In this document: positions 1,353 through 6,247 of the stretch, in pieces
How the letters are laid out: each line of letters begins with the position of its first letter
Numbering within the stretch: position 1 is the stretch's first letter
Origin: a bacterium
Lineage (GTDB): Bacteria; Vulcanimicrobiota; Xenobia; Xenobiales; Xenobiaceae
DNA: 60,043 nt
Direction of reading: 5' to 3'
Assembly: GCA_017458675.1 (NCBI GenBank)
Contig: JAFTAM010000032.1
Span: 1 to 60,043, forward strand
Translations under genes and position numbers: made by a program
The notes under the pieces: generated by a model
Seen by the model: the letters and a program-made list of their open reading frames with translations, nothing else
Told to the model about the DNA's origin: nothing
The model's database searches: none

Positions 1353-2738
1353 TTACTGACAGGACGGATCGTTTTGCCGGGGACGGCGCTTGGTGCGCTC
1401 GCTCCACCAGCGCTCGCGGTCGATGTTGGCTTCAGAGCCGGATTCGTGAATTCCTATGTCGTTGGCCAATTCGCCTTTGCCGCAGAAGCAGCCGATCTGT
1501 CTGTCGACGTTTTGAGGGTCGCAGGCGGTGATGTAGCCGATTAAAAGCGGATTGGCGGGCAGATAGTGGAGGTTCCAGCCCAGCTTCAAGCGGATAAAGA
1601 GGCTGAAGAAGTCGGGCAGGAGGCTGAGAGAGCGGAAACTTAACAGAGAGAAGCCCAGGCGCAGGAACCAGAGGGCTTTCTGCCATTTGGTCTGGGCTTT
1701 GGGCAGATCGTCAAGCACGGGCTCGACGCGCTTCCAGTCGACGTATTCGGAAATTCCGTGATAGCGTCCGTCCTTGCGGATTAACAGATTGTGCTGCACG
1801 TACAGGCATTTGCGCACTCCCAGGAAAGAAAGCAGGGCAAAATAGAGCTTGTTGAAGCTGAAGCATTCTTCTCTGGGGCAGAGACCGCTTTCCCGGTAAA
1901 CGAGATCGATCACCTGATCGGGCATCAGAGTGGCTTTGCTGTCGCGGAAATAGCCTAAAGCCCGGGTCCCCAGGAACATGACCTCCTTGATGAAGGCCTT
2001 GTTTTTGGCAAACTCCAGAACTTTGCCGATTTCCTTCTCGTTGCAGTCGGGCATAATAACCATGACCAGACTGGTGGCGACATTGAGCTTTTCCAGATTT
2101 TCCAGAACTCTGAGCTTGGTATTGGTCAGTCTGGCTCCGCGGATGCGCATGTAAGCGTCGTCGTCGAAGCCGTCCATCTGCAGAAAGACCTCGTCGAGGC
2201 CTGCGTCCTTAAGAGTCTGCAGATAATTTATATCGACCAGGCGCAGACCGTTGGTATGCAGAGAAACGATGTGGCCGCGCTTACGGATCTCCCGCATAAA
2301 CTGAGGCAGATCGGGACATAAGGTGGGCTCAGAGGATATTAAATCGATCTTGAGCTGTCGGCCGGGGCGGCTGTCCATGAATTCACAGAGCTTTTTCAGC
2401 TCCAAATCCGGTACAGGAGGCGGGGCTTCGTTTTGGTTGGAGTCGGCGCTGGCTAAGCAGATGGGACACTGCAGATTGCATTTTTCGGTCATGCGGATCA
2501 GATAGTCGCGCTGCCTGAATTCGCCCTGCATGACGGAAAAGAAGTATCTGTCCAAATTGGCATAATAATCGGGACGCTTGGAAAGCAGACACTGAGAATC
2601 GCCGTGCTCCGGACAGATCTTGTGCAGATAGACGCAGCCGTCCTTTTCAATCACCCGGGCGGGAACATCCTTAAGACAGTCGGGACATACCGATACGGTT
2701 TCGCGTATAACTTTTTCTGTAGTACAGACGTTTTCCAT
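1353..2738 (-). CDS. Radical SAM protein with Tes-like N-terminal cysteine motif, 461 aa
   Basis: The radical SAM cluster motif CNLQCPIC lies at residues 87-94 (Cys87, Cys91, Cys94), so the enzyme should bind a 4Fe-4S cluster and cleave S-adenosylmethionine. Ahead of it is a second cysteine region: CPDC at 18-21, then CPEHG at 42-46. That arrangement, with a 'DG-VYL-K-CPEHG' run, is what I associate with the tetraether-lipid-synthase (Tes) group of radical SAM proteins. The C-terminal part has further cysteines (CDP, then CFC) that may bind an auxiliary cluster. Known Tes proteins join lipid tails by carbon-carbon bonds. Whether this bacterial relative does so is inference, and the substrate is unknown. 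It is transcribed divergently from the L,D-transpeptidase, 181 bp away. A peptide-modifying or MoaA-like role is the main alternative. Confidence 0.85.
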   Translation of the reverse strand: MENVCTTEKVIRETVSVCPDCLKDVPARVIEKDGCVYLHKICPEHGDSQCLLSKRPDYYANLDRYFFSVMQGEFRQRDYLIRMTEKCNLQCPICLASADSNQNEAPPPVPDLELKKLCEFMDSRPGRQLKIDLISSEPTLCPDLPQFMREIRKRGHIVSLHTNGLRLVDINYLQTLKDAGLDEVFLQMDGFDDDAYMRIRGARLTNTKLRVLENLEKLNVATSLVMVIMPDCNEKEIGKVLEFAKNKAFIKEVMFLGTRALGYFRDSKATLMPDQVIDLVYRESGLCPREECFSFNKLYFALLSFLGVRKCLYVQHNLLIRKDGRYHGISEYVDWKRVEPVLDDLPKAQTKWQKALWFLRLGFSLLSFRSLSLLPDFFSLFIRLKLGWNLHYLPANPLLIGYITACDPQNVDRQIGCFCGKGELANDIGIHESGSEANIDRERWWSERTKRRPRQNDPSCQ

Positions 2739-2919: not shown

Positions 2920-4578
2920 ATGGGGTTTTGGCAGATGAACATATGTTCTTTCAGAACAGCTTATTCGGTATTGGCAATAGGAGCGGCTTTAGGCTTATTT
3001 TTGTGGGCTGAGCCCTGTTTTGCGCAATGGCGCGGAGTAGTGGGGCGGGACCGCACTCATACTGTGCAGTACGGCGAAGATTTGTATTCTATAGCCCAGA
3101 AATACGGTCTGGCTATTGAGCATCTGGCTTTTGCCAATAAACGCGATCCCAATAATATCAATGTCTCTCCCGGCACTTCGCTGGTAATTCCGGGGCGTCG
3201 GGTGCTGCCTAAAAATCCACCGGCCAACGGCGTAGTGGTTAATTTGCCCGAGCGCGGCTGTTTTTTGTTCAGGAACGGTCAGTTTGAAAAGTTCTACCCG
3301 GTGGCTATAGGCCAGCCCGGCCGCTTTCAGACTCCTATAGGAAGCTTTGTTATTGAATCGCGCTCCGTCGATCCTATCTGGATGCCGCCGGAATGGGCGG
3401 GGATGGAGGTCGACGTGGTGCCGGCCGGTCCCGGCAATCCTCTGGGAGATCGCTGGATCGGTCTTTCCGCTCCCGGCATAGGCATGCACTCCACCAACAG
3501 TCCAATGTCCATAGGGCAGGCGGTTTCGCACGGCTGCATGCGCATGTATCCCAATTCTGTGCGTGAGCTCTTTGATAAGGTACAGGTAGGCTGGCCTGTG
3601 CGCATCGAGTATGAGACCGCCAAGATAGGGCGCGACTTCGGCAGCGATACCTGCTATTTTGTTACTTTCCCCGATGTTTACGGTTTAGCCAGTTTAAAGA
3701 GCTCGGCGGGAAAAACTCTGGACGGCGCGGGACTGAGCGTATCGGACGCCGATTTGAGCTATCTGGCTTCCGGCGACGGCGTGGCTAAGGAACTTTACAT
3801 CAGCAGCGTCAATATCGCCGTAGGACAGGACCGAATAAGCTCCTGGCCTATTGAGCCTTCGATGGTGGACGGAAATATCTGGGGCTCTCCCAAGGTAGCC
3901 GCCGCCGCAGGACTGGACGTGGCCTGGGACAACGAGAATCAGGTGGTGATAGTGAGCCATGGCCGCACTATTCAGTATTATCCCATAAGCTCGGGCTATG
4001 AAATTGATACCTCTGCGCTCCCTGCCGGCTATGAAGCGGAGATTGCCGGTCAGGCCCGCAAAATTGACGGCAAGACCATCATTCCCATGCGTCCTTTGCT
4101 GCAGGGCTTCAGCCTTAAAAATGAATGGGACAGCGAAAGCCGCACTCTGATCGTTTCCAAGGTAGGCAAGAATGCGCCGAAAAAGACTCAGCCCGCGCAG
4201 CCTAAGCCTGAAGCTAAGCCCGAAGTTAACCCCGGTCAAGCGCCTCAGGCAGCTCCTGCCGCCGAAACGCAGGCGCCGCCCGCGCTTCCCGATTCCGAGC
4301 AGGAGGCTCAGCCCGCTCCCGCAGAATCCGAAAACCGCGGCGCGGAATCGGTTCCTTCCTCGCCTGAAAGACCGCAGGGAGAGACTGTCGAGGTCGGCGG
4401 CAGCCGCGTTCAGCTTTTAGATAAATATGCCGAGGTTCAGGACGGTTCAGTTACTACGTATGCGCCTAAGCATTCTAAGAATTCCAAAAAGGACAGCTTA
4501 AAAGACGGCGCTGAAAACGATCCCTCTGACGATGATCTCAGACCGGTCCCTCAGATAGTGAAGCAGATAGAAGAATAA
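2920..4578 (+). CDS. Exported L,D-transpeptidase with LysM and copper-amine-oxidase-N-like domains, 552 aa
   Basis: A hydrophobic N-terminus ending in CFAQ (about residue 35) is a signal peptide. A LysM peptidoglycan-binding domain follows at about 47-91. The YkuD catalytic domain spans about 104-230, with His190 and the signature SHGCMRM holding the nucleophile Cys206. These enzymes make 3-3 peptide cross-links or attach proteins to peptidoglycan. Residues about 290-440 match the copper-amine-oxidase N-terminal type, which is common as a wall-binding stalk, and a Pro/Ala/Glu-rich tail follows. An alternative ATG 15 bases downstream (residue 6) gives a more usual signal peptide and may be the true start. 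The copy B repeat begins 16 bp after the stop. Confidence 0.9.
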   Translation: MGFWQMNICSFRTAYSVLAIGAALGLFLWAEPCFAQWRGVVGRDRTHTVQYGEDLYSIAQKYGLAIEHLAFANKRDPNNINVSPGTSLVIPGRRVLPKNPPANGVVVNLPERGCFLFRNGQFEKFYPVAIGQPGRFQTPIGSFVIESRSVDPIWMPPEWAGMEVDVVPAGPGNPLGDRWIGLSAPGIGMHSTNSPMSIGQAVSHGCMRMYPNSVRELFDKVQVGWPVRIEYETAKIGRDFGSDTCYFVTFPDVYGLASLKSSAGKTLDGAGLSVSDADLSYLASGDGVAKELYISSVNIAVGQDRISSWPIEPSMVDGNIWGSPKVAAAAGLDVAWDNENQVVIVSHGRTIQYYPISSGYEIDTSALPAGYEAEIAGQARKIDGKTIIPMRPLLQGFSLKNEWDSESRTLIVSKVGKNAPKKTQPAQPKPEAKPEVNPGQAPQAAPAAETQAPPALPDSEQEAQPAPAESENRGAESVPSSPERPQGETVEVGGSRVQLLDKYAEVQDGSVTTYAPKHSKNSKKDSLKDGAENDPSDDDLRPVPQIVKQIEE

Positions 4579-4870: not shown

Positions 4871-5383
4871 ATGGATAATAAAAAACTTTTTACAGCCTTT
4901 TTGCTTTGCGCTTCGCTTATTGCCTGCAGCGCATCTCCCGAAGGTCCCAACCCCGGCGCTATCAACCCGGGCATAGGCGTGACCGAGGTTAAGCTCTTTG
5001 ATGCCAAGGAAAAGGTCGAGCAGAATTTGGGCAAGCCGGCCAGCGAAACTGCCAACCCCTTCAACGCCCGGAATATTATCGTTCAGTACCCCGATAAGGG
5101 TTTGGAAATTTCTTACCTTAACGACGCCGTAGGCAGCATTGTCATGTATCCTTCCGGCAAGGACGGCGACGGAGTGGAGTGGCAGGTATATCAGGGCTCG
5201 ACGCCGGAGGGCGTATGGCCGCAGTCAGATGTGAGTACCATAAAGAAAAAACTGGGCGCGCCCTTGAAGGAGCTTCCCAAGGCGGTCGTATATCCCGGCC
5301 TTTGGATACGCTTAGACAGCAAAGGCGGAGTGGAAAGCTTCAGCATCAGCAAGGACGAGGCCGCTCAGCTTCAGGAAAATTGA
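4871..5383 (+). CDS. Hypothetical lipoprotein, 170 aa
   Basis: The N-terminus is a type II signal: two lysines, a hydrophobic stretch and the lipobox LIAC with the lipidated Cys19. The mature part is about 150 residues, with Gly/Asn/Pro just after the cysteine and then a mixed alpha/beta region containing regularly spaced Gly and Val. I do not recognise a family. It may be a small beta-lactamase-inhibitor-like or SmpA/BamE-like fold: the segment with a 'KLFDAKEKVEQNLGKP' run looks like the helix-then-strand opening of such domains. It stands alone between the copy B repeat and a convergent terminator. Confidence 0.75.
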   Translation: MDNKKLFTAFLLCASLIACSASPEGPNPGAINPGIGVTEVKLFDAKEKVEQNLGKPASETANPFNARNIIVQYPDKGLEISYLNDAVGSIVMYPSGKDGDGVEWQVYQGSTPEGVWPQSDVSTIKKKLGAPLKELPKAVVYPGLWIRLDSKGGVESFSISKDEAAQLQEN

Positions 5384-5677: not shown

Positions 5678-6160
5678 TTATTTATTTATAGCTTCCAAAT
5701 CGTGTTTGGCATACTCGTTGTTGGGATCGAGCTCCAAAGCCTTCTGAAGATCGGCGATGGCTTCTTCGGTCTTGCCCTTCTGAGCGTGGATATTGCCGCG
5801 CAGATAATAAATCATGGTGTTGTTGGGGTCTATGCCCATAGACTGGTTGAGCTGCTCCAAGGCCAGATCCAGATAGCTTCCGCCCTTCTGAGCGTAAAGG
5901 TTGGCCAGCATGATCCAGCTCTTAACGTCCATGTAATTTTCGCGCAGGCTCTTCTGACAGAAATCAACGGCCGGATCGATAAAACCTGCAGTTCCGTATA
6001 TCTCTGCCAGTTTGTACAAAACTTCGGGATCGCGCGGGTCAAATTTATAAGCTTCGGTGAATTCCTCAACCGCTTCTTTAATTTCTCCGGCTTCATAGTG
6101 GCGCTTGCCGCGTTCGCGGTGAAGTTCCGCCATACGGTAATGTTCGTTGTTCATAGTCAT
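5678..6160 (-). CDS. Tetratricopeptide-repeat protein, 160 aa
   Basis: Residues about 5-155 form roughly four TPR units with the usual spacing of Gly, Ala and Tyr and the closing 'A-LDP-N' type turn. Such proteins are scaffolds for protein-protein contacts, and the partner is unknown. The start is uncertain. An ATG at 6160 is used here. A TTG at 6223 would add 21 Lys-rich residues but lacks a good ribosome-binding site. It is the last gene of the leftward run that begins with uvrB, lies close behind the FAD oxidoreductase, and is followed by the terminator at 5611-5651. No signal peptide is seen. Confidence 0.8.
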   Translation of the reverse strand: MTMNNEHYRMAELHRERGKRHYEAGEIKEAVEEFTEAYKFDPRDPEVLYKLAEIYGTAGFIDPAVDFCQKSLRENYMDVKSWIMLANLYAQKGGSYLDLALEQLNQSMGIDPNNTMIYYLRGNIHAQKGKTEEAIADLQKALELDPNNEYAKHDLEAINK

Positions 6161-6247
6161 AGCAGAAATATTTTTCTTTTCGGCGGTCCTTTTACCTGCC
6201 TTGTTTCTCAGCTTTTTTGACAATATGTGTTTTGAAGCGGAGGAAAA

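Follow-up and report, generated by a model that had tools for sequence, protein, structure and literature searches.

What does a bacterium do with an enzyme built like the one that makes archaeal tetraether lipids? The window analysed here, a 60,043-nucleotide stretch of contig JAFTAM010000032.1 from a member of the Xenobiaceae, carries on its minus strand a gene (1353-2738, ATG start) for a protein of 461 aa. A sequence-only reading of this DNA had noted a CPDC...CPEHG block ahead of a radical SAM domain and compared the product with tetraether synthase (Tes), which couples lipid tails in archaea. The arrangement is real, and the ORF call returns the same length. Residues 10-53 (2580-2711, minus strand) match the rubredoxin/zinc-ribbon family Zn_ribbon_HMPTM (Pfam PF23545; 59.1 bits, cut-off 27) and residues 82-244 (2007-2495, minus strand) match the radical SAM core (PF04055; 69.8 bits, cut-off 29.5); family alignments (A1 and A2) and fold matches to 7tol/7tom support the gene as a whole. 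In the first domain, C18/C21 of CPDC and C42/H45 of CPEH form a C-X2-C-X20-C-X2-H motif, a spacing identical to that of the Tes rubredoxin site, C9X2C12X20C33X2H36, in the part of the Tes study that describes it (PMC9433317). In the second, C87/C91/C94 make up the CX3CX2C motif (2457-2480, minus strand) of the SAM-binding [4Fe-4S] cluster. The chain is short partly because the segment that holds the N-terminal auxiliary cluster of Tes is missing.

Is this likeness confined to shared domains, or does it extend to the whole fold? By sequence, Tes is the best match among solved structures (1.4e-37, over residues 12-68 and 81-256). A model predicted by AlphaFold2 from 10 sequences (mean pLDDT 83.9, pTM 0.87; worst in the radical SAM cluster loop, with pLDDT <50 at residues 86-90 and 95-105) finds Tes again: Foldseek ranks 7tom first (1.2e-27), ahead of MoaA (6.4e-9), and VIA-align places 7tol at Z 33.9 (rmsd 3.7, 423 residues aligned, model residues 8-448, cap included), with MoaA as runner-up at Z 19.1 and 261 residues aligned. 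Kinship with Tes therefore stands by all three comparisons; calling the gene a Tes does not. When the profile search suggested with the sequence-only reading was run, the best NCBIfam score was that of TrsS (NF045646; 169 bits, cut-off 490), with Tes (NF045702) at 126.6 bits against a cut-off of 450. The protein falls far short of both curated cut-offs, and on that ground neither name, Tes or TrsS, was given to it outright. Selenocysteine, hinted at by the name of TrsS, was also dropped: the in-frame stops of some matches sit at or beyond the C-terminal end, so no recoding is inferred.

The C-terminal half holds the cysteines that the sequence-only reading had credited to the protein as its own. 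They are present, and three are invariant in all 33 aligned rows, as are H316, the CX3CX2C motif, ITACDP and CGK; they belong, however, to a modified version of the Tes [Fe4S4]C domain and not to anything unrelated. C311 (1806-1808, minus strand) aligns with Tes Cys338 and C419 (1482-1484, minus strand), in a CGKG motif, with Tes Cys455; C406 (1521-1523, minus strand), in GxITACDP, lies three residues past the position of Tes Met439 (Tes numbers are structure chain numbers minus 20, which fits Met439 and Tyr459). From this alignment, C311, C406 and C419 may carry a surviving C-terminal cluster. The last cysteine, C460, falls outside the conserved part, and the sole cysteine that stands between the rubredoxin domain and the CX3CX2C motif, C50, is not a conserved family feature. 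Ahead of C406, residues 353-400 (1539-1682, minus strand) form helices in the model at the position of the Tes lipid-pocket helices. This cap is hydrophobic, with a mean hydropathy of +0.53 over the 33 rows; hand-cut caps give +0.13 for Tes and -0.07 and -0.29 for two further proteins used for comparison, L016 and L077.

Nine relatives from the same phylum align over their full length at 48-70% identity. In four pairs of close UBP9 relatives, NG86 dN/dS values of 0.08, 0.12, 0.17 and 0.18 reveal purifying selection on the family; the window gene gives 0.23 against L022 and 0.21 against L023, values made unreliable by a dS of 1.2-1.4. With full-length relatives and low dN/dS, the gene is more than a chance ORF. 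In a quick tree of 45 rows, which carries long-branch warnings and includes a single archaeal sequence, the 33 family rows fall on one side of a branch with support of 100, and Tes (7tol) pairs outside them with the bacterial protein L077 (support 99). By alignment and tree, then, the window protein is not a Tes orthologue but a member of a separate bacterial clade. Neither includes L053: its gene is broken into three reading frames (L053:9788-11331; frameshifts or assembly errors in this MAG), yet partner genes surround it. L051 and L035 each lack one end.

The same phylum holds other relatives. L077 (G020:C214) is much closer to archaeal Tes, with N-cluster cysteines, an MHFMD motif and the tyrosine of IIHY, and by these sequence features outranks the window gene as a candidate bacterial tetraether synthase. 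L014, L015, L017 and L018, of ~500 aa, have a longer zinc-ribbon insert (CRRGHGE) without N-cluster cysteines and make up a further Tes/TrsS-like group. By eye, L074 (G005:C125; 832 aa) looks like a fusion of three parts: a nucleotidyltransferase, an HD-type domain and a TrsS/Tes-like radical SAM region.

How widespread is the clade? Ten of 149 genomes of the window's phylum carry the gene at E up to 1e-60. A contig scan with the 10-sequence alignment yielded 32 named loci in records labelled UBP9, Eremiobacterota, Chloroflexi, Myxococcota/Deltaproteobacteria, Verrucomicrobia, Lentisphaerae, Kiritimatiellia, Holophagae and Candidatus Proruminimicrobium; the titles of 30 of these records start with MAG, and a cultured strain is named in no title. 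Since the scan relied on two short peptide patterns, one of them ITACDP, it favours members that keep those motifs. Larger genome searches were samples in which at most four or five first-look candidates were scored per genome; they place the gene in at least 2 of 387 genomes sampled from the phylum of G149 (a Kiritimatiellia record), in at least 25 of 377 from that of G150 (a Myxococcota record; two matches are weak, 1e-76 and 1e-70) and, at E up to 1e-40, in at least 2 of 294 from the phylum of G152 (Elusimicrobiota) and at least 11 of 347 from that of G156 (Acidobacteriota), G156 itself being the only full-length match among these. The gene is thus present in at least the window's phylum and these four. 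Eight locus-bearing genomes searched whole have one copy each (E up to 1e-20).

Can the company that the gene keeps narrow down its role? Partner genes lie near all nine loci outside the Myxococcota-type and UBP9 groups: an FAD oxidoreductase, a UbiU-like and, tentatively, a UbiV-like protein, a DegT aminotransferase and further radical SAM enzymes. Across the 32 loci, a UbiU-like gene (Pfam U32) sits directly downstream in seven (L028, L029, L031, L045, where it is cut by the contig end, L047, L050 and L052), the FAD oxidoreductase is found in seven (L031, L045, L047, L049, L050, L052 and L053), B12 radical SAM genes with strong scores in six (L028, L029, L049, L050, L052 and L053), and an HpnH/PTO1314-like radical SAM gene in seven (L028, L029, L037, L039, L049, L050 and L053). 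These gene calls are homology-based, longest-ORF calls having produced antisense artefacts (cluster 1). At the 17 Myxococcota-type loci, the HpnH-like gene appears in L037 and L039 only and L051 has a partial DegT match; their available flanks have no FAD or UbiU-like match, and those of the five UBP9 loci and L027 have no partner. Many contigs end near the gene, so these absences are soft. Five fresh loci were examined after the partners had been defined, and three carry them. L118 (G033, of the window's phylum) reads FAD-DegT-Tes-like gene-UbiU-like-UbiV-like-B12rSAM-rSAM-B12rSAM; L119 (G1000) has UbiU- and UbiV-like genes ~8 kb upstream and B12rSAM directly downstream; at L102 an FAD gene directly follows the Tes-like gene. 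L103 and L104 have no partner within ~1.5 kb. The UbiV-like identity is tentative: Pfam (one protein scanned) and NCBIfam (five) return no match, hhalign links the UbiV-like and UbiU-like profiles weakly (probability 24, E 8e-4), neither the UbiV-like profile (at better than E 0.17) nor the UbiU-like profile finds a match in the PDB, and the predicted UbiV-like model is poor (pLDDT 52).

The window copy has no partner gene beside it. Its neighbours, a YkuD/LysM gene (2920-4578), an ORF at 4871 and a TPR gene (5678-6223), also lie next to it in L023 and L025, and the YkuD gene does so in L026 as well; the gene's place in this lineage is therefore old. Two 145-aa ORFs follow the gene on the minus strand (364-801 and 834-1271), without a Pfam match at E up to 0.1 or a tblastn match in the 32 loci. 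The partners are elsewhere in the same genome: contig C118 carries FAD-DegT-rSAM-B12rSAM-rSAM-B12rSAM (L128:8111-16919; G000:C118), flanked by housekeeping genes (MraW methylase and a Sua5-type gene), and its four radical SAM enzymes are two SPASM/MoaA-like and two B12-binding proteins. The six-gene order is identical in G002 and G005, and in G003 a portion of it sits where a contig ends. Among the contigs of G001, a genome of the same genus that lacks the Tes-like gene, the two inspected contain none of the block. The FAD gene occurs in nine of the ten genomes of the phylum that carry the Tes-like gene, a count over carriers only; it is a fragment in G003 and was not found in G016 (61% complete). 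The UbiV-like gene occurs in three of these ten and is absent from seven, the window's genome included. The C118 DegT protein (201 bits) is nearest to sugar aminotransferases; its ORF, of 587 aa, has a proline-rich tail of ~180 aa beyond the part matched by relatives. Among the partners generally, the FAD protein lies closest to PRK07208 models and matches UDP-galactopyranose mutase as well. One B12 radical SAM protein of the window's genome is nearest to HpnJ (175 bits, cut-off 577.6) and scores 127.9 against a cut-off of 360 with a ladderane-associated model; with these cut-offs missed, none of the partners counts as a confirmed lipid-family enzyme. The arrangement is most sensibly read as one in which the Tes-like gene either broke away from the operon in the UBP9 lineage or was never part of it, with the remainder staying together, and we infer that the distant C118 block serves the same pathway as the Tes-like gene.

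The Myxococcota-type clade adds a feature of its own, an N-terminal hemerythrin HHE extension, which passes the Pfam cut-off in 10 of 10 scanned proteins. The fusion is found at 13 of the 17 loci (L030, L032, L033, L035-L040, L042, L043, L046 and L048), 12 by an in-frame tblastn match and L032, whose best tblastn match is out of frame, by Pfam; L034, L041, L044 and L051 are unfused, and tblastn detects the fusion at none of the 15 other loci. Among eight further non-identical loci, L098-L100 are fused and L096 and L097 begin at a contig end; the distant L102-L104, with 48, 31 and 29% identity to the nearest member, are unfused. L030, L033 and L035 have longer extensions with apparent extra repeats (two Pfam stretches in L033). 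In the GC-rich UBP9 genomes, long open frames also precede the gene; they were set aside as probable noise, being Arg/Pro-rich and unlike the Myxococcota fusion. Hemerythrin/RIC proteins guard or repair clusters; by analogy, the fused domain may guard or repair the Fe-S clusters of the enzyme that carries it. If it shields them, a radical SAM enzyme would have its own built-in oxygen guard.

What reaction would such an enzyme catalyze? The reading that we prefer, at a probability of about one half, is that a Tes-fold enzyme of a bacterial clade performs C-H activation on a long, hydrophobic molecule and supplies one step in a pathway of several enzymes, probably anaerobic. A reduced [4Fe-4S] cluster at C87/C91/C94 would split SAM, and the 5'-deoxyadenosyl radical would abstract a hydrogen from a carbon accessible via the gap that separates the barrel from the hydrophobic cap. 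The resulting substrate radical could be held at a C-terminal [4Fe-4S] cluster on C311, C406 and C419, whose fourth iron would be open or bound by another residue, e.g., the invariant H316, and would then be coupled to a second carbon or another partner; the iron of the N-terminal rubredoxin domain might supply electrons. For the window copy, the enzymes likely to act in the same pathway are encoded on C118: the FAD oxidoreductase, DegT, two SPASM/MoaA-like and two B12-binding radical SAM proteins. Against this reading, neither the hydrophobic cap nor the Tes fold shows a function by itself.

A true counterpart of Tes would go further, joining the ends of two lipid tails and giving the bacterium membrane-spanning lipids. 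The match of the whole chain, cap included, and the retention of the rubredoxin site and the auxiliary cluster domain speak for it, and bacterial Tes homologs have been proposed to make brGDGTs, without proof in the passages of those papers that deal with them (PMC8941075, PMC11868695). Loss of Met439 and Tyr459 would be no obstacle either: changes at both left Tes activity, as reported in the mutagenesis part of PMC9433317, so both are dispensable in Tes and their absence here does not exclude a Tes-type function. However, the protein sits in a separate clade far below the Tes cut-off, it lacks the N cluster and a counterpart of Cys470, L077 in the same phylum is much closer, and hydroxylase-like, aminotransferase and B12 radical SAM partners exceed what tail coupling by itself would need. 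Coupling of lipid tails by the window enzyme is possible; a full counterpart of Tes is unlikely.

Nor does the partner set prove a lipid; a glycan or another natural product would be compatible with it too. On the way to a non-lipid product or a surface sugar, DegT, FAD and B12 radical SAM enzymes could build a modified sugar or ring compound that the Tes-like protein modifies, as the sugar-aminotransferase affinity of DegT and the PRK07208 and UDP-galactopyranose mutase matches of the FAD protein would fit. Genes found once each point the same way: PMT_2 glycosyltransferase-like proteins and GNAT near L119 and LPG_synthase_TM near L118; PEMT/ICMT and GNAT occur, also once each, near L050. Yet PMT_2, LPG_synthase_TM and PEMT/ICMT proteins are themselves usually lipid-linked, and the window protein combines a strongly hydrophobic cap with the fold of a lipid enzyme, which leaves a non-lipid product rather unlikely. 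Far less credible is a SPASM-type peptide (RiPP) maturase, despite the radical SAM core and the SPASM-like enzymes among the partners: a Pfam search of the window protein with E allowed as high as 1 detects no SPASM domain, and peptide-modifying enzymes, which the sequence-only reading had named as the best matches that would tell against Tes, rank far below it in VIA-align (SuiB at Z 16.1 against 33.9; SkfB and others likewise). The preferred reading of C-H activation on a hydrophobic substrate can also be extended. Uncultured lineages might run a pathway to coupled or membrane-spanning lipids in which a Tes-like enzyme that has lost a cluster works with four radical SAM enzymes, an FAD enzyme, an aminotransferase and, in some phyla, U32 hydroxylases, and in which a di-iron hemerythrin of its own protects or repairs the clusters where oxygen may be met; such a scheme is unlikely.

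How much of this is new? Bacterial homologs of Tes are in print: one search, in the part of PMC8941075 that reports it, lists 456 at E under 1e-50, and their function is unproven in the relevant passages of PMC11868695. The proven bacterial tail-coupling enzyme named in the part of PMC13274423 on this subject is Mss. In the open literature, which places most subscription journals outside the scope of this statement, we found no description of the clade, the operon or the hemerythrin fusion; no title there names a hemerythrin-radical SAM or hemerythrin-tetraether synthase fusion, and the four partner-gene terms combined return nothing. Bacterial coupling of inert lipid tails bears on brGDGT palaeothermometry and on the lipid divide.

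The systems already characterized set off what is particular to this family. UbiU and UbiV, each with one [4Fe-4S] cluster on four cysteines, hydroxylate a ubiquinone precursor without O2 on an isoprenoid-linked substrate and work with the lipid-binding UbiT, according to the passages of PMC10470549 that describe them. The UbiU-like partner is a distant relative, at 77-88 bits against a UbiU cut-off of 440, which it misses; the UbiV-like partner has four invariant cysteines in six of six proteins. MoaA and SPASM enzymes (PDB 1TV7, 5V1S) share the radical SAM barrel with the window protein but not its rubredoxin domain or a Tes-type cap. The likeness to TrsS lies mostly in the radical SAM core, and other relatives from the same phylum outscore the window protein against TrsS (e.g., L016, at 331 bits). 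With Tes (GDGT-MAS; M. jannaschii MJ0619, PDB 7TOL/7TOM), by contrast, the family has in common the fold, the rubredoxin site, the radical SAM core, the cap helices and the C-terminal auxiliary domain. It differs in that the three cysteines of the Tes N-terminal auxiliary cluster (C73/C77/C80 plus His) are missing; Met439 is replaced by I403, Tyr459 by E423 and Cys470 by a non-cysteine; C406 is new; the SAM-binding GGEPT reads SSEPT, SAEPT or similar; and the gene partners are different, as is the clade. Being a well-bounded clade of the Tes fold with fewer clusters and a defined gene context, the family can show which parts of Tes serve which chemistry.
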